DNA from: Kaistella sp. 97-N-M2
GTDB taxonomy: Bacteria > Bacteroidota > Bacteroidia > Flavobacteriales > Weeksellaceae
Direction of reading: 5' to 3'
Assembly: GCF_021513235.1 (NCBI RefSeq)
Contig: NZ_CP090976.1
Span: forward strand, 186,001 to 250,000
DNA: 64,000 nt
Part shown: positions 28,475 to 35,649 of the stretch, piece after piece
Layout of the letters: the number at the start of each line of letters is the position of its first letter
How positions within the stretch are numbered: position 1 is the first letter of the stretch
Translations under genes and position numbers: made by a program
Notes under the pieces: generated by a model
Seen by the model: the letters and a program-made list of their open reading frames with translations, nothing else
The model's database searches: none
What the model was told of the DNA's origin: nothing

Positions 28475-29368
28475 TTATTTTACATCGTCCATTTTTTGTG
28501 TGGCGGCCATCGAAACCATCAGATCGTTTAACATAGAGTTGGCTGCATTTGGCGAATTTGGCAAGAGAACCAAACTGCTCTTATTGCTGGATCCGATTGC
28601 CTGAAGCGTATCATAATGCTGCGTGACAACGATCAACGCCGAAGCTTCCTGTGCGTTAATATTGGCTTCGTTTAACATTTTTACAGATTCTACCAAACCT
28701 GCGGCGATTTCCCGACGCTGATCGGCAATACCCTGACCCTGCAATTTTTTAGATTCCGCTTCCGCTTTCGCTACGGCCACAATCCGGATTTTCTGCGCTT
28801 CAGATTCGTATTCCGCTGCCGTTTTCTCCCGCTCTGCCGCGTTAATTCGGTTCATCGCATGTTTCACCTGCTCGTCCGGATCGATATCCGTTACCAATGC
28901 TTTAATGATGTCGTATCCGTAACTCTGCATCGCTTCCTGAAGCTCACTTTTCACTGCGATGGCAACGTCGTCTTTTCGAACGAAAACGTCATCCAGTTTC
29001 AACTTTGGAACTTCTGCGCGCACTACATCGAAAACGTATGAAGTGATCTGGTTTTCCGGATTTTCCAAGCGGTAAAACGCGTCTGCAACCTGCGAAAATA
29101 TCACCTGATACTGCACGGAGACTTTCATTCGAACAAAAACATTATCCAATGTCTTCGTATCGATAATCACATCCAACTGCTGAATCCGGAGGTTCATCCG
29201 TTTTGCAACCTGATCGATAAACGGGATCTTAAGGTGCAGGCCCGACTGGCGCACGATGTGAAATTTCCCCAAACGCTCAACAATAGCGGCGGTTGCCTGC
29301 TTCACTGTAAAAAAGGAGGCGAATAAAACAATAAGTCCAAAAAAGACTATAATTCCTAAAAATGCCAT
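28475..29368 (-). CDS. SPFH/stomatin-like membrane protease-associated protein
   Basis: A 297-residue paraslipin/stomatin-type protein. One N-terminal membrane segment (about 2-22) is followed by the SPFH (band 7) domain (VVERLGKFHIVRQSGLHLKIPF from about 30 in two parts, DVIIDTKTLDNVFVRM, ALVTDIDPDEQVKHAMNRINAAEREK) and a long helical Glu/Ala-rich region (about 170-240) that drives oligomer formation. Such proteins form membrane rings or rafts and often pair with an NfeD protease; no nfeD is adjacent here, the neighbours being an unknown membrane protein and the tandem-protease gene on the opposite strand. Confidence 0.9.
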   Translation of the reverse strand: MAFLGIIVFFGLIVLFASFFTVKQATAAIVERLGKFHIVRQSGLHLKIPFIDQVAKRMNLRIQQLDVIIDTKTLDNVFVRMKVSVQYQVIFSQVADAFYRLENPENQITSYVFDVVRAEVPKLKLDDVFVRKDDVAIAVKSELQEAMQSYGYDIIKALVTDIDPDEQVKHAMNRINAAEREKTAAEYESEAQKIRIVAVAKAEAESKKLQGQGIADQRREIAAGLVESVKMLNEANINAQEASALIVVTQHYDTLQAIGSSNKSSLVLLPNSPNAANSMLNDLMVSMAATQKMDDVK

Positions 29369-29534: not shown

Positions 29535-29542
29535 TAAATTTG
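29535..29542 (+). promoter_or_regulatory. Putative -7 box of the two-peptidase operon
   Basis: TAAATTTG fits TAnnTTTG. It lies 112 bp upstream of the ATG at 29654, which would leave a leader of about 105 bases. The open frame continues upstream over this box, so the upstream codons are taken as untranslated. Confidence 0.35.
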
Positions 29543-29653: not shown

Positions 29654-32500
29654 ATGTCTTCCACAAAAATTATCAACGATCTTGCGTACGAACGTTTTCA
29701 GGAGGCAACTTCCAAAATCGAGCACGTTAAAAAAGGCATCCAGGAAACCCGAATGGGCGAAGCCAGCCTTACCGATATTCAAACCGACAGCGACAAGCTT
29801 TCCAAAAGGATCGCGCGCGAAAATATGCCTATTTCGGCCGCCTTGGAAAGGATTAACGGCGTACCTAATTTTCAGGATATCAATATCCTCTATAAGATTT
29901 TAAAGATCTCCGAATCTGTTGCCCGCATCACCATTAAAACACGGTATGGAAACTCCGGCTACGGCACAGGATTTTTGGTCGCGCCCGGCATTCTGATAAC
30001 TAATAACCACGTTTTCCCTGATGCCGAAACGGCTAAAAACTCCATGGTTCAGTTCTATTATGAACTGGACGAAAATAACGAAGCCAATAAAATTCAAACT
30101 TACGGTTTCGCACCGGAAAAGCTCTTTCTGACGTCCACCTACGAAGCGCAAAAGGACAACCCGAACAGCGGCCTCGATTTTACGATCGTAGCCATTACAG
30201 AGAAATCCAAAGAGGGAAAATACATTGGCGACATTCCGCATACGGTTTTGGATGAAACTTTCGGCAAGATCATCGAAGGTGAAAACTGCGTCATCATTCA
30301 GCATCCGAAAGGCGATTATAAAAAAACCGTCATGAAAGACATCCGGATGCTCACGCTGAAAGATGACTTTTTAATCTATGAATCCGATACGCTTCCGGGC
30401 TCCTCCGGTGCGGTGGTAATTGGTCTGGGAACAGGCGAAGTCGTCGCGTTGCATCACAGCAGTATCCCGAACAAAAATCCGCAGGGACAGTGGCTTCGGA
30501 AAGACGGCGGCGTTTACAAAGACGGAGATGCCGATGAAACCATCGATTGGCTGGGGAACGAAGGGATCAGGGTGAGTTCGCTTATTCGGTGTATACGAAA
30601 TATGACTTTACCGCCGGAAATGAGTCTTCTCCGAAATACCATTCTCGGAAAGCACACAGAAATCAAAAACGAACCTAAAACCACGAAACCCCGGAAAGAA
30701 AAGCCCCAAGACGATATGAAAAATTCCAACGAATCTGTTCTGAACCAGGCCGTTAATATGATTCAGAACGCGCCCTCGCGGGATAATCTTTCGCTTCAGT
30801 ATTTTGAGATTGAACTCTCCAATATCAGTCTCATGCAGGACGACTGGAAGGAAAATTACAAGAAACTGGTTCCCGAAATTGTCACTTCCGAACCGCTGTT
30901 TCCTTTATCGACAATACCTTCGCAAAAAATTATTCAATATGTAACCCTTTCGTCGAATGAAAATCCCTGGGAGATCGCAGCAAAACTGGAAGCGCTGCCG
31001 CAGATAAAAACCGCGACGCCCGATCTGGAAATGGAAACCGACCTTCAAAAGAAAACAAGGAACAACAATCAACTCACAGAATCCGACATGCTGGAAAGTA
31101 TGAAAACCAGCAATGCCGCGGGCCGAGAAGATGACTTTAAAACCAAATGGAGCGCTTCGCCCTTTTTTACACTCGACGATTCCGACGTTGTTAATCAAAG
31201 ACTTTGGAACCGAACCGCCGTGGGTTTAAACCTGAAAAATAAAAAAGGAACAAATGTAACTTCTTTGTTAGATGAACTTTTTAAAGCAAAAAAATCAGCA
31301 GCAGGCGATGCTGAACAGGATGAAAATCCAGACGAAAATGCCATTATTGAGAACCTCAAAAAAATAAATTTGGTTCAACTCGATACAGGTTACACCGATC
31401 ATGCGAAGGTTAAGGGCCGTTTCAATTTCGACTGCGACGAGGATTTCATTGATGGTTCCGATGCGCGCGATGATATGAGAACAGGTTTGCTGCGCCATCC
31501 GGGACACGGAACGCGCACCGCAAGCATTATCACGGGCGGTGACATGAGTTCTGTTTTTAAAAACGACGGCAACTACGGCATTTTGTGCGACGAAGACAAA
31601 AATTCCCTCGTGAATATTATTCCGTACCGCATCTCCGAATCCGTGGTTTTGATCAACCGCGGAAAAAACGTTGTTGATGCCGTTAATCAGGCAGTTCATA
31701 CAAATGCAGACGTCATGTTTATGTGCATGGGAAGTTATCCGCGGCCGATGATCGCCGAAGCTGCAAAAGTAGCGTACGATAATGGCGTGATCTGGGTTTG
31801 CGCCGCCGGAAATGAAGTCGAAATGGTGGTGGCGCCGGCCTTGTGTCCGGGAACGATCGCTGTTTCTGCCATCAATCCAAATCAGAAACCCTGGCGCGGT
31901 AGCAGTTATGGCCGCGAAGTCGATATTTCTGCGCCGGGTGAAGATGTTTATGTTCCTTCTATGGACGAAAAATTTAACGAAATCATGGTCTACGGCAGCG
32001 GAACAAGTTACGCAACACCACACGTTGCCGCTGCTGCTGCGCTTTGGAAAGCGACGAGACGCGAAGAAATTTTCGAAAAGTATAAATTTCCGTGGCAGAT
32101 TGTGGAAGCCTTTCGAAAATGCGTAAAATCTTCCGCGACAAAACCTGCTGTTTGGGACACCGAAAATTACGGCGCCGGCATTTTGAATATTTACGATCTG
32201 CTGAAATGCGAATTGCCCGATATTGAGAAAAAAGATTACGCCTATGCCAACGATACGCGCCAGGAATGGGATTTGGGTGTTCGCGAGGCGGTGCATTTTC
32301 TCTGGAACACGTTGTTGCGAAAAACAATTTCCGCGCAGGAATCATCGCAGGAGATGCAACTCACGGAACGATCGCGAATTGCCATTGCCGCCATGACGGG
32401 AAATCCTGTTTCGACTGTTTTTGAAAGCGACAGCATCACGGCCCTCACCGATACGGAAAAAATCCTCAAAATGTATTTCGACAGCTACCAAAAAGACTAA
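29654..32500 (+). CDS. Tandem serine protease: trypsin-like domain plus S8 subtilisin domain
   Basis: A 948-residue protein with two serine-protease domains in one chain. Residues 1-90 are helical with no signal peptide. Residues 90-315 are a trypsin-like (chymotrypsin-fold) domain: H119 in TNNHVF, D175 in GLDFTIVA, S251 in LPGSSGAVV. A charged linker (about 335-375) leads to a region resembling a subtilisin propeptide (about 380-460; NPWEIAAKLEALPQIKTATP). The subtilisin domain follows (about 565-830): D577 in LDTGY, H618 in GHGTRTAS, oxyanion N720 in AAGNE, S785 in SGTSYATPHVAA. Both triads look complete. The next gene starts 2 bp after the stop, so they are surely co-transcribed. Start at 29654 (MSSTKIINDL) rather than the TTG at 29540, since the extra N-terminus is low-complexity and overlaps the putative promoter. 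Confidence 0.88.
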   Translation: MSSTKIINDLAYERFQEATSKIEHVKKGIQETRMGEASLTDIQTDSDKLSKRIARENMPISAALERINGVPNFQDINILYKILKISESVARITIKTRYGNSGYGTGFLVAPGILITNNHVFPDAETAKNSMVQFYYELDENNEANKIQTYGFAPEKLFLTSTYEAQKDNPNSGLDFTIVAITEKSKEGKYIGDIPHTVLDETFGKIIEGENCVIIQHPKGDYKKTVMKDIRMLTLKDDFLIYESDTLPGSSGAVVIGLGTGEVVALHHSSIPNKNPQGQWLRKDGGVYKDGDADETIDWLGNEGIRVSSLIRCIRNMTLPPEMSLLRNTILGKHTEIKNEPKTTKPRKEKPQDDMKNSNESVLNQAVNMIQNAPSRDNLSLQYFEIELSNISLMQDDWKENYKKLVPEIVTSEPLFPLSTIPSQKIIQYVTLSSNENPWEIAAKLEALPQIKTATPDLEMETDLQKKTRNNNQLTESDMLESMKTSNAAGREDDFKTKWSASPFFTLDDSDVVNQRLWNRTAVGLNLKNKKGTNVTSLLDELFKAKKSAAGDAEQDENPDENAIIENLKKINLVQLDTGYTDHAKVKGRFNFDCDEDFIDGSDARDDMRTGLLRHPGHGTRTASIITGGDMSSVFKNDGNYGILCDEDKNSLVNIIPYRISESVVLINRGKNVVDAVNQAVHTNADVMFMCMGSYPRPMIAEAAKVAYDNGVIWVCAAGNEVEMVVAPALCPGTIAVSAINPNQKPWRGSSYGREVDISAPGEDVYVPSMDEKFNEIMVYGSGTSYATPHVAAAAALWKATRREEIFEKYKFPWQIVEAFRKCVKSSATKPAVWDTENYGAGILNIYDLLKCELPDIEKKDYAYANDTRQEWDLGVREAVHFLWNTLLRKTISAQESSQEMQLTERSRIAIAAMTGNPVSTVFESDSITALTDTEKILKMYFDSYQKD

Positions 32501-32502
32501 TC

Positions 32503-34293
32503 ATGGAAAAAAAATATTTCGACCTTCATCTGCATCCGCTTTTCAAAAATTTCCTCAGTCATTACGATGTTTTGGTTCCGCCACCGAATAAAAAAATGGA
32601 GGAACTGACGAAACCCATCCGAATGTCTAACGCTTTAACGAGTGTAATGGACGAACTTTTCATCCATATTCTGAAAGGTCAGAGCAGCATTCAGCAATGT
32701 TTAAAAGGCAACGTGAATTATGCGGTCGCCGCAATTGTGAATCTGGAGCACGGTTTTGCCGACAGCCGCGGTTTTTTTGGAAATGTTTTGAAAAGCAAGT
32801 TTTCCAATCCACTCGACAAAACCTATTTCGATAAAGTCCGCAATGGCGAAGTTTCCTACTATCGTTTAATGCTGATGGAGTTGAGTCTTTACAAACAGCT
32901 GCGCGACTACAAAGACAGCCCAATTAGCATCTTATCCCGAAACGCGCCGAAAAATTCCGCGCAGAAACCCTTGAATATAATTTTCAGTTTAGAAGGTTCT
33001 CATAATTTCAGCAAACTGATGGTGGGAAATCCTTTAAAGATCGACTATGTGGAAGACCGGTTTGTGGATTTGAAAAAAACCATTAAACTTTCGCAGGTCG
33101 CAGATCATCTTTGGCGGGAAATGATCGTCGATACCGAAAACGGCGGAAGTCCCGCGGACAATTACAGCCAAAGTCCGGCGGTTAATCTGGAGAAGTTTTA
33201 CAGAAGTTTGTCTCAGGAAAAAATGGACCTTCTTTACCTAACGCTCACGCATCTCACGCACATCAACGAACAGTTCTTGGCGACGCATGCTTTCGGCATG
33301 AAAATGCTTAAACATCCGTCGTTTTATCCCTTCGGAAATGGAATTACAACCTTAGGCTTCGAAGTCATCGAAAAATGCTACTCCATGACGAACGAAAAAA
33401 ACGAGTACCGCCCAATCCTTGTGGATATGAAACATTTGGGCTTAAAATCTCGGCAGGATTATTATGCCTTCCGGAAATCTTTAATTCAAAAAGAAAAAAA
33501 ATACGCGCAGATTCCCATCATCGCTTCGCATATCGGCGTTACCGGATATACGGTTAACGAATGGAAAAATGCCCTGAAGCGCGATACGTGCACGGTGTAC
33601 AATTATGAAGGTGCGCGAGCAGTCTCGCTGGAAATGAACAAAAAAAACTGCGGCAAATGGGGCTCTTTCGTGAATAACGATTTTACTTACAATCCGTGGT
33701 CCATCAACCTGATGGATGAAGACATTACGGAAATTTTAAACAGCAACGGAATCATCGGGATGAGCCTCGACGTACGGATTTTAGGATTTCAGTCTGAGTA
33801 CGGCATCAGTTTAAGCAGCGAAAACGAATTTTTAAGTACGGCGGATTTTCATACGCATTTTCCCCAGATCGCCGTAAAAAATCTGCCCATTAATACAATG
33901 GAATCTATGATTTCTGAACAGGAAAGCTGGCTTATTCCTACGAAAGAAGACCGCCATCCGCTGTCTTTCTGCTTTAATATTATCCACATTATTCAGGTTG
34001 GCCTGCTCAAGACAGACATCGATGAACCGTGGAATCAGATCTGCCTGGGAAGTGATTTTGACGGTTTGATAGAACCTTTAAAAGTTTCGCCGGACATTGC
34101 TTCTCTCGAAGAACTCGAAGCCAATATGATCAAATGGCTGCCCGTGGCGGAGATGGCGTACATCAACGAAAATGGCGGCACCGAAATTTTAAGTAAAAAA
34201 TCGACGCCGGACTTAAAAAAAGTTGTGCGGGCGATTATGTTCGAGAACGGCAAAAATTTTATTGAAAGATGGCTGAAGAATTTCGCGCTGTAA
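32503..34293 (+). CDS. M19 (membrane dipeptidase)-like metallohydrolase
   Basis: A 596-residue protein. Metal-ligand motifs of peptidase family M19 appear in order: H9-L-H11 (DLHLHP; M19 normally has HxD), E164 in FSLEGSHNF, TLTHLTH near 249, H311 in VDMKHLG, H343 in ASHIGVTG and the D-containing GSDFDG near 516-521. It is much longer than a typical 350-420-residue M19 enzyme, with insertions between motifs (about 190-235 and 360-500). No signal peptide is visible, so it should be cytoplasmic. It begins 2 bp after the tandem protease and probably acts with it, for example on peptides that protease releases; that link is inferred from gene order. M19 also includes non-peptidase members, so the substrate is open. 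Its stop abuts the stop of dgt with no gap. Confidence 0.78.
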   Translation: MEKKYFDLHLHPLFKNFLSHYDVLVPPPNKKMEELTKPIRMSNALTSVMDELFIHILKGQSSIQQCLKGNVNYAVAAIVNLEHGFADSRGFFGNVLKSKFSNPLDKTYFDKVRNGEVSYYRLMLMELSLYKQLRDYKDSPISILSRNAPKNSAQKPLNIIFSLEGSHNFSKLMVGNPLKIDYVEDRFVDLKKTIKLSQVADHLWREMIVDTENGGSPADNYSQSPAVNLEKFYRSLSQEKMDLLYLTLTHLTHINEQFLATHAFGMKMLKHPSFYPFGNGITTLGFEVIEKCYSMTNEKNEYRPILVDMKHLGLKSRQDYYAFRKSLIQKEKKYAQIPIIASHIGVTGYTVNEWKNALKRDTCTVYNYEGARAVSLEMNKKNCGKWGSFVNNDFTYNPWSINLMDEDITEILNSNGIIGMSLDVRILGFQSEYGISLSSENEFLSTADFHTHFPQIAVKNLPINTMESMISEQESWLIPTKEDRHPLSFCFNIIHIIQVGLLKTDIDEPWNQICLGSDFDGLIEPLKVSPDIASLEELEANMIKWLPVAEMAYINENGGTEILSKKSTPDLKKVVRAIMFENGKNFIERWLKNFAL

Positions 34294-35649
34294 TTACATC
34301 GTCATGCCGATATCGATGCCTTTGATTTTTCGGTAAAGATCGGTCGCAAAATTATCCGTCATTCCCGACACAAAATCGATAACGCCTAAAACCTTTTGGT
34401 AATCGCTGCCCTCTTCGTACACAAATTGCTGCGGCAATAATTTCAAGGCCATTTTATCGTAGGATTTCCGCGTGGATTTTTCCTTTAAAATGGGCGGAAT
34501 AAAATGATCCAGCAATTCGTTCATTACATTATAGCCGGCATTTTCGATCTCAATAACGGCTTTGTGTCCATAAATTTTTTCGATGGAGAAACTTTCGATC
34601 TCCTGTAAAGATTTGTTTTCAGACTTGTAAATATCAAGCATAGCCTGATCTAAATTTCCCTCTAAAATTTTGGCAAAATTAGTCTGATAAATTTCAATCG
34701 ATTTATTGATTAAAGCGTTGATAACCTTTGCTCGCAAATAAGAAATACGTTCGTTCGCATTGGTAAGATTGACGAGTTTTTCTTCTACCCTTTTCGTGTT
34801 GGGATTTTCGGATTTAATGAGTTCAAAAAAAAGATTTTCGCAATCCGACGTCGAAACAATTCCCAAGCGGTGCGCGTCTTCCATATCGATAATGTTGTAG
34901 CAAATATCGTCGGCGGCTTCTACGAGCCAAACAAACGGATGTCTTTTGAAAATCGTAGGTTCATCGTTTTCCTGTTTTAAATTCACCGATTTTGCAATGT
35001 CGAGAAATGTGTCTTTTTCATTTTGAAAGAAACCGAATTTTTTGCGGTGAATGATGCCTTTCTTTTTGGCCACTGCTTCACACGGATATTTCGCGATGCT
35101 CGCCAAAGTTGTGTATGTTAACTGCGTTCCGCCTTCATCTTTGCCGTTTTGCTGGTGCGTTAAAACACGAATTGCATTAGCATTTCCTTCAAAATTTACG
35201 AGATCTGCCCATTCTTTTTCGGAGAATTTATGTTTCAGATCTTTTTCATTTTTCTCAAAATAACTCGCGATGGCGTCTTCGCCGGAATGCCCAAAAGCGG
35301 GATTTCCCACATCATGACACAAACACGCCGCGGCGATGACATTGTTCAGATTGTGCTGATAGAAAGTTTTCGAATTTTCATCGAGTTCCGATTCGTAGTT
35401 TTTAAAAATAAATTCGCCGATCACACTTCCCAAACTGCGGCCAACAGAAGAAACTTCTAGCGAGTGCGTTAAGCGGTTGTGCACAAAAACACTTCCCGGC
35501 AGCGGAAAAACCTGCGTCTTATTCTGCAAACGCCGAAAGGCTGCGGAAAAGATAATGCGATCGAAATCCCGCTGGAAATCTGTTCGTGAAGCTGCCGTTG
35601 GCGCGTTTTGACCGGTCCGTTGGTTGGTGAAAAGTTGGTTGAGAATCAT
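34294..35649 (-). CDS. dgt: Deoxyguanosinetriphosphate triphosphohydrolase (dGTPase-like)
   Basis: A 451-residue HD-domain dNTP triphosphohydrolase, which splits dGTP (or dNTPs) to nucleoside and triphosphate. HD-fold metal residues: H62 in NRLTHSLEVSS, H112-D113 in LCHDVGNPAFGHSGE and the downstream D of EAADDICYNIIDMEDA. RDFDRIIFSAAFRRLQNKTQVF at the start (about 27-48) is the family signature. Length is normal. A TATTTTTG box lies only 4-12 bp upstream of the start, so either the message is leaderless or the true start is further in. Confidence 0.93.
   Translation of the reverse strand: MILNQLFTNQRTGQNAPTAASRTDFQRDFDRIIFSAAFRRLQNKTQVFPLPGSVFVHNRLTHSLEVSSVGRSLGSVIGEFIFKNYESELDENSKTFYQHNLNNVIAAACLCHDVGNPAFGHSGEDAIASYFEKNEKDLKHKFSEKEWADLVNFEGNANAIRVLTHQQNGKDEGGTQLTYTTLASIAKYPCEAVAKKKGIIHRKKFGFFQNEKDTFLDIAKSVNLKQENDEPTIFKRHPFVWLVEAADDICYNIIDMEDAHRLGIVSTSDCENLFFELIKSENPNTKRVEEKLVNLTNANERISYLRAKVINALINKSIEIYQTNFAKILEGNLDQAMLDIYKSENKSLQEIESFSIEKIYGHKAVIEIENAGYNVMNELLDHFIPPILKEKSTRKSYDKMALKLLPQQFVYEEGSDYQKVLGVIDFVSGMTDNFATDLYRKIKGIDIGMTM

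Follow-up and report, generated by a model that had tools for sequence, protein, structure and literature searches.

Two adjacent genes of Kaistella sp. 97-N-M2, one encoding a protein with a trypsin-like and a subtilisin-like (S8) domain and the other a long protein resembling peptidase family M19, raise the question of whether they act together and, if so, in what kind of process. They lie in a window of 64,000 nucleotides (contig NZ_CP090976.1, positions 186,001 to 250,000) from a complete genome of the family Weeksellaceae, and the numbering of the window is used here. A sequence-only reading of the window had proposed that they form a functional two-gene module serving defence, toxin activation or peptide recycling. 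We find that the two genes do form a genuine module, which we read, with about equal chances of being right or wrong, as a mobile two-gene proteolytic conflict cassette, kin through its trypsin module to the predicted trypsin-NucA conflict systems and carrying a subtilisin in the place of the nuclease. The coordinates and reading frames given earlier, and the gap of 2 bases between the genes, were all correct on recheck:

29654..32500, + strand, trypsin-S8 fusion protein, 948 amino acids (aa), ATG start at 29654; 23 full-length relatives
32503..34293, + strand, long amidohydrolase of predicted M19 fold, 596 aa, ATG start at 32503; H9/H11/E164/H311/H343 plus D518

The Two Genes Are Inherited as a Pair

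We searched 296 Weeksellaceae genomes and a 200-genome sample of the Rufibacter family with the trypsin-S8 profile; the M19-like profile was run against 395 genomes of the class. Twenty-three full-length trypsin-S8 loci were found (14/296 in Weeksellaceae and 9/200 in the Rufibacter-family sample), their identity ranging down to 33%, and in every one of them an M19-like gene lies directly 3′ of the trypsin-S8 gene, at distances of −1 to 118 bp. Since the most distant pair members share just 28-36% identity with the two proteins of the window, this strict pairing is not a matter of mere recency. The two gene trees, one of the trypsin module and one of the M19-like protein, agree in their main groupings, and the mirror correlation between the two identity matrices, 0.964, was reached in none of 5000 permutations. 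The M19-like proteins of the pairs make up a single clade, separate from the long paralogues that stand alone (99/99), and the trypsin-S8 proteins form one clade (100/97) beside trypsin modules linked to NucA and Endonuclease_I. The trypsin-S8 combination, judged by its tree, has a single origin.

From the complete adjacency, the matching trees and the retained active sites, we conclude that the two genes form a genuine module, as the sequence-only reading had it. Neither a rarity of this neighbourhood in other genomes nor a loss of catalytic residues in the relatives, both of which were looked for, was seen: all relatives (23/23) have an intact trypsin triad and all but K. palustris (22/23) an intact S8 triad.

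Two loci called for a closer look. At locus L108, the apparent lack of an M19-like neighbour proved to be a gene-calling artefact; the partner gene is intact, has an intact frame and is the one partner outside the ligand alignment described below. An S8 gene next to an M19-like paralogue (L055) was rejected as a further pair, its S8 protein having a Por tail of the type IX secretion system and its M19 protein falling outside the pair clade.

Domain Organization of the Trypsin-S8 Protein

The fusion protein is divided as follows:

29654..29938, + strand, N-terminal helical region, residues 1-95, partly common to NucA-linked trypsin proteins
29939..30613, + strand, trypsin-like domain, residues 96-320, triad H119/D175/S251, Trypsin_2 match
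30788..31039, + strand, putative prodomain-like segment, residues 379-462, a conserved island between variable linkers
31349..32233, + strand, subtilisin (S8) domain, residues 566-860, triad D577/H618/S785, Peptidase_S8 match
32234..32497, + strand, C-terminal region of low conservation, residues 861-948, distant members 22% identical on average

Both protease domains with complete triads, read earlier from the letters, are confirmed by Pfam matches above cut-off, to Trypsin_2 over residues 104-266 (E 2.8e-12) and to Peptidase_S8 over residues 576-802 (E 2.6e-29, 102.9 bits), as well as by the conservation described above. By sequence, the nearest solved relatives of the S8 domain are intracellular serine proteases. 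In line with the earlier statement that no signal peptide is visible, no hydrophobic N-terminus and no export or transmembrane segment was seen in either protein of the pair, the highest 19-residue Kyte-Doolittle means being 1.7 and 1.3. Residues 1-95 gave no Pfam match, and tblastn alignments to several NucA-linked proteins begin at residues 11-22. The segment at ~379-462 is ~30% identical among distant members and has hypervariable linkers on either side.

The Trypsin Module Belongs with Those of Predicted Conflict Systems

Residues 14-330 align with trypsin modules that are fused or adjacent to Endonuclease_NS (NucA) in Rhizobium, Paenibacillus, Weeksellaceae and the Rufibacter family, or fused to Endonuclease_I, with BLAST E values down to 1e-58 and 34-40% identity to the NucA-fused examples. 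On these alignments, the trypsin module is homologous to those of trypsin-NucA predicted conflict systems. Under the name "System 3", Kaur et al. 2020 described NucA-trypsin operons, sometimes with an S8 domain in the same polypeptide, and predicted that they serve in conflict and are switched on by a proteolytic cascade (PMC7159879). A subset of System 3 has EAD1 or Death-like (bDLD2) domains and STAND NTPases; beside the Kaistella pair there is no STAND gene. The trypsin-S8 pair shares with System 3 the N-terminal trypsin module, the presence of S8 in the same polypeptide (in some System 3 members), plasmid-borne members and the predicted cascade. It differs in that NucA is missing (neither window protein of the pair has an Endonuclease_NS match in Pfam, and the flanking genes are SPFH and dgt), S8 is the sole fused effector and an M19-like gene always follows; the pairs described here are from Bacteroidota, whereas System 3 is mainly alphaproteobacterial.

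Three further systems are comparable. In Hachiman and AVAST phage defence, trypsin-like proteases cut and activate a gated partner nuclease, and the genes co-evolve and are transferred together (Tuck et al. 2025, PMC12799240). These nuclease-protease pairs, known from Hachiman, AVAST, Lamassu and DRT, resemble the Kaistella pair in combining a co-inherited trypsin-like fusion with a hydrolase that has long insertions, and in their transfer as a unit. However, theirs is an upstream nuclease of the metallo-β-lactamase (MBL) fold with the protease fused to HamA, Avs1a or LmuA, whereas here the partner is a downstream enzyme of predicted M19 fold and the fusion is to a subtilisin. Caulobacter LypC, a trypsin-endonuclease protein, requires its protease serine, and not its nuclease residues, for cell lysis (PMC13236601). 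Its domain layout is similar, an N-terminal trypsin-like domain being followed by a second effector domain, but that effector is an endonuclease, and LypC works in CARD-NLR-like lysis (LypABC) with the CARD-protease LypA and the NLR ATPase LypB, neither of which is found beside the Kaistella pair. A Fusobacterium trypsin-Endonuclease_NS protein is likewise a trypsin fused to a second hydrolase; it differs in being a single example with a nuclease partner and no M19-like neighbour reported (BMC Genomics 2008, PMC2605481). Both the trypsin module and the idea of a cascade were thus known before, and combinations of trypsin, S8 and NucA were described in 2020 (PMC7159879). The exact architecture, a trypsin-S8 protein followed by an M19-like one, was not found in the open-licence literature searched and is new to that extent, as the sequence-only reading had supposed.

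Several loci with related modules were seen along the way. In the Rufibacter-family sample, the trypsin module is fused to Endonuclease_I (PF04231, tested in L113) at L113:7112-9292 and in a close homologue at L114:7265-9442, which amounts to a nuclease swap. On Rhizobiales conjugative plasmids, an S8 protein is followed by a trypsin gene (L032:5521-8316 and L153:5635-8427); the S8 protein of L032 itself has a C-terminal trypsin domain, i.e., the reverse order, and in L153 a dCTP deaminase gene precedes and an AAA ATPase gene follows. These loci look like a different protease-cascade defence operon. A Rhizobium plasmid operon (L152:3173-11498) encodes a phospholipase D-like protein, an S1/P1 nuclease, a trypsin-NucA protein, an unassigned protein and a CHAT (caspase-like) protein, and so brings together two protease types with several nucleases. 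At L062:6922-13910, a trypsin-module gene between unassigned genes is followed by genes for a GDSL lipase and a TPR-CHAT protein, a possible lipase effector variant.

The Partner Is a Long Protein of Predicted M19 Fold

The Pfam Peptidase_M19 family (PF01244) matches the window protein weakly (E 5.5e-4, 19.6 bits vs. a cut-off of 26), and its Rufibacter orthologue passes the cut-off with 34.1 bits. Since a search of PDB sequences with the M19-like profile returned no match, assignment of the fold rests on structure comparison. The predicted structure is of modest confidence (pLDDT 56, pTM 0.69); its 17 best matches are all M19 enzymes, with Z of 19.6-24.5 over 281-315 residues, and the next, a non-M19 protein, has Z 13.4. 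The model clearly assigns the M19 fold to the 596-aa protein.

The window protein is like family M19 (membrane or renal dipeptidases) in fold (Z 24.5 to 3fdg) and in its EGGH-type, KH, SH and GSDxDG motifs. It differs from the characterised M19 dipeptidases in having HxH where they have HxD, in being about twice as long and in a sequence score below the Pfam cut-off. The putative ligand pattern H9/H11/E164/H311/H343/D518 is kept in 22/22 aligned partners. The earlier description of a 596-residue protein with all metal motifs, HxH and large insertions is therefore borne out, except that HxH and the insertions are no peculiarity of it: no pair member lacks HxH, nor does any of the long M19-like relatives examined in which the region is present, and the large insertions likewise occur in every long relative examined, so that both mark a subfamily and not the window gene. 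For the same reason we rejected HxH as a mark of special function for this gene. Among the structure matches is GliJ D38H (5lx4), a laboratory HxD-to-HxH mutant.

What does set the pair clade apart is five residues, R146, D242, E256, Q257 and P304, which are invariant within it and absent from 12 paralogues. They are what one would expect of a dedicated interface, and they bear on an alternative in which the pair would be an anti-phage abortive infection system, the trypsin-S8 protein serving as a sensor-protease and the M19-like protein as a gated proenzyme activated by cuts in its insertions, as HamM is by HamA. Nuclease-protease pairs follow the same logic, down to gene trees that match and joint transfer of the two genes (PMC12799240), and the long low-confidence insertions of the M19-like protein relative to solved M19 enzymes (596 aa, of which about 300 align) would offer sites for such cuts. 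Yet most of the insertions are also present in stand-alone paralogues, and the extra segments specific to the pair span no more than 12 residues. In the published cases, moreover, the gated partner is an MBL-fold nuclease and the protease is fused to a known defence enzyme, and neither a defence-island signal nor a trigger component accompanies the Kaistella pair. We consider this explanation rather unlikely, while still worth keeping in mind.

The Pair Is a Mobile Unit

The genes flanking the pair are unrelated to it, as had been noted from the sequence, and turn out to be the borders of an insertion site:

28475..29368, − strand, SPFH gene, left border of the insertion site, outside the module
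34294..35649, − strand, dgt (name taken from the sequence-only reading), right border of the insertion site, outside the module

The full pair is present in 7/36 Kaistella genomes, and dgt in all 36. The pair lies between SPFH and dgt in Kaistella and also in three genomes of Chryseobacterium; the Kaistella locus holds the two pair genes and, in some genomes, one small gene. In most Kaistella genomes that lack the pair, SPFH and dgt are directly adjacent, usually 60-90 bp apart, i.e., the site is empty. The pair is thus a mobile unit, gained or lost at one site in Kaistella. In relatives, the same junction was also seen to hold an unrelated 345-aa gene (L126) or a ParE-like toxin-antitoxin pair (L133).

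In trees, the Kaistella copies group with Rufibacter copies. Three other Weeksellaceae genomes (G982, G1029 and G1017) hold the pair elsewhere, and those of their copies that were analysed, Chryseobacterium members, fall together with copies from Cytophagia (98/99 and 100/100). This mixing of Weeksellaceae and Cytophagia copies suggests that the pair was transferred between classes, namely Flavobacteriia and Cytophagia. A phage origin of the pair is not supported: phage matches of the trypsin-S8 protein are limited to its S8 part, and no relative of the M19-like protein was found among viral contigs and phage records.

Such a distribution is hard to reconcile with housekeeping intracellular turnover of proteins and peptides by an ISP-like subtilisin and a dipeptidase-like partner. 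One could argue for this function from the intracellular serine proteases that are the best solved S8 relatives, from the dipeptidase activity of M19 enzymes and from the absence of export signals. But the pair is rare and patchy in genus and family and its site is empty in relatives; it occurs in plasmid and injection-system contexts (see below), its trypsin module belongs to a nuclease-linked family, and characterised M19 dipeptidases have HxD where the partner protein has HxH. We regard a turnover function as improbable. Peptide recycling, one of the roles suggested from the sequence, is disfavoured because the distribution is patchy and mobile, and nothing was found in support of a degradation chain in which products of the subtilisin feed the M19-like enzyme.

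Genomic Contexts of the Pair

The Hymenobacter copy is on a mobilizable plasmid, among two peptidoglycan amidase genes and a gene for a transmembrane protein, with a NucA gene a few genes away. The transmembrane protein, which begins MFGSQILEVAIG, is a member of an unassigned multi-transmembrane family, seen at L029:4967-6157, L047:9779-10861, L064:7001-8272 and L065:7001-7864. In Bacteroidota, Burkholderiales and Rhizobium, genes of this family adjoin those of peptidoglycan amidases, a cell wall hydrolase, an amidohydrolase plus an M19-like protein, and a metallophosphoesterase; a homologue precedes an amidase gene in Caballeronia and an amidohydrolase gene and an M19-like paralogue in another Bacteroidota genome. 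The multi-transmembrane protein may serve a hydrolase-based system as its membrane partner.

In two related Cytophagia genomes, the pair comes directly after an operon of an extracellular contractile injection system (eCIS). In one of them, G1065 (loci L118/L119 and L111), the operon is complete and on the same strand as the pair: genes for sheath, tube, spike, PAAR, gp25, Baseplate_J and tape measure lie upstream, and eCIS_core, AAA ATPase, trypsin-S8 and M19-like genes follow. In the other, G1080 (L112), the neighbouring genes agree with these in size, order and eCIS_core match, and the pair is again on the same strand. Since the G1065 and G1080 pairs are 77% identical, we count them as one lineage.

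Could the pair, then, be eCIS cargo, an injected pair of effectors kept elsewhere as orphan cassettes, or did it insert there by chance? For cargo, its position directly after the eCIS_core and AAA ATPase genes in both genomes would fit, as would the fact that published eCIS toxins include peptidases, endonucleases and peptidoglycan hydrolases (PMC8213781). However, the link is confined to one related lineage among 23 loci, and no eCIS core domain (eCIS_core, PF13699) was found in the 22 Kaistella genomes tested. In those other carriers that have a strong eCIS core match, it is on another contig or >280 kb away, and neither pair protein contains an eCIS_core domain itself. We therefore hold the cargo explanation to be improbable.

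A Proposed Proteolytic Conflict Cassette

The contexts favour a defence or toxin role, as had been suggested from the sequence: the module is homologous to those of trypsin-NucA systems, lies in a plasmid island with peptidoglycan amidase genes and is linked to an eCIS in one clade. An association with defence islands, which that role might have implied, did not emerge. In the conflict cassette that we propose, the activation order, the trigger, the target and the role of the M19-like enzyme are what we infer. A trigger (infection, damage or delivery into another cell) would engage the N-terminal trypsin module, which would cut the variable linker or the prodomain-like segment and so free the C-terminal subtilisin. 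The freed subtilisin would degrade cell proteins. The M19-like metal hydrolase would be the obligate partner enzyme: the protease might cut and so activate it, or its own substrate might be a small amide or a dipeptide. A cell in which the cassette acts would stop growing or die, and the context would be one of conflict, namely self-limiting defence or, where an eCIS is present, antagonism.

That the trypsin domain acts on the fused subtilisin is plausible by analogy, since trypsin-like proteases activate partner proenzymes (PMC12799240) and the module is homologous to those of trypsin-NucA systems; the precedents of Kaur et al., Tuck et al. and LypC make reading the protein as a protease switch reasonable. 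A bolder version can be imagined, in which a self-contained two-step serine-protease switch, with the trypsin domain cutting the fused subtilisin zymogen, also activates a gated amidohydrolase from a new HxH subfamily of M19, making up a caspase-cascade-like defence or suicide pathway. We consider it unlikely; if it were true, the cascade would end in a protease and an amide hydrolase and not, as elsewhere, in a nuclease or a pore.

Several results weigh against the conflict cassette. The eCIS link, as noted, is limited to one lineage and is not seen in Kaistella. PADLOC models gave no more than weak domain-level matches to the pair (best E 7e-4) and no match to ten neighbour genes, which thus show no defence-island association, and no sensor gene (STAND, NLR or EAD) lies beside the pair in Kaistella. 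Because the segment at ~379-462 has no significant match among Pfam or PDB sequences, we call it prodomain-like on position and C-terminal pattern only; that it is an S8 prodomain is plausible, not established. The "propeptide-like stretch" of the sequence-only reading is thus conserved in place, but no known propeptide confirms its nature. The AlphaFold2 model of the 948-aa fusion (pLDDT 41, pTM 0.32) was not used. Finally, K. palustris (L021:5161-7998) has Gly in place of the S8 Ser (GTSYATPH to GTGYAAAH). Since its trypsin triad, reading frame and an intact M19-like partner are retained, S8 activity may be dispensable in this species.

In their logic, the protease cascades by which bacterial cells die are coming to be seen as relatives of the animal caspase pathways, and their known end effectors are nucleases, pores and lipases. 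A strictly paired cassette with a second protease as the fused effector and an amidohydrolase as partner would add an effector type and a ready test system. The pair is also a lead to the long M19-like proteins, a widespread and functionally unassigned family of Bacteroidota, and to the reason for its own place behind an eCIS operon in one lineage.

Upstream and Downstream of the Pair

In Bacteroidota, the −7 promoter element is TAnnTTTG. A match to it precedes the pair:

29535..29542, + strand, TAAATTTG, likely promoter of the pair, match to the Bacteroidota −7 element

The sequence GTAnnTTTGA is located ~110 bp 5′ of the trypsin-S8 start codon. Since it is invariant in the upstream regions of all seven pair-bearing Kaistella, in which the surrounding DNA is divergent, the pair probably has its own promoter. 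Examination of the upstream region for repeats revealed no structure of note. At the other end, in two Chryseobacterium genomes, a 529-aa gene with no Pfam match lies 3′ of the M19-like gene (L023:9810-11399 and L090:12650-14239) and may be a third member of the module.

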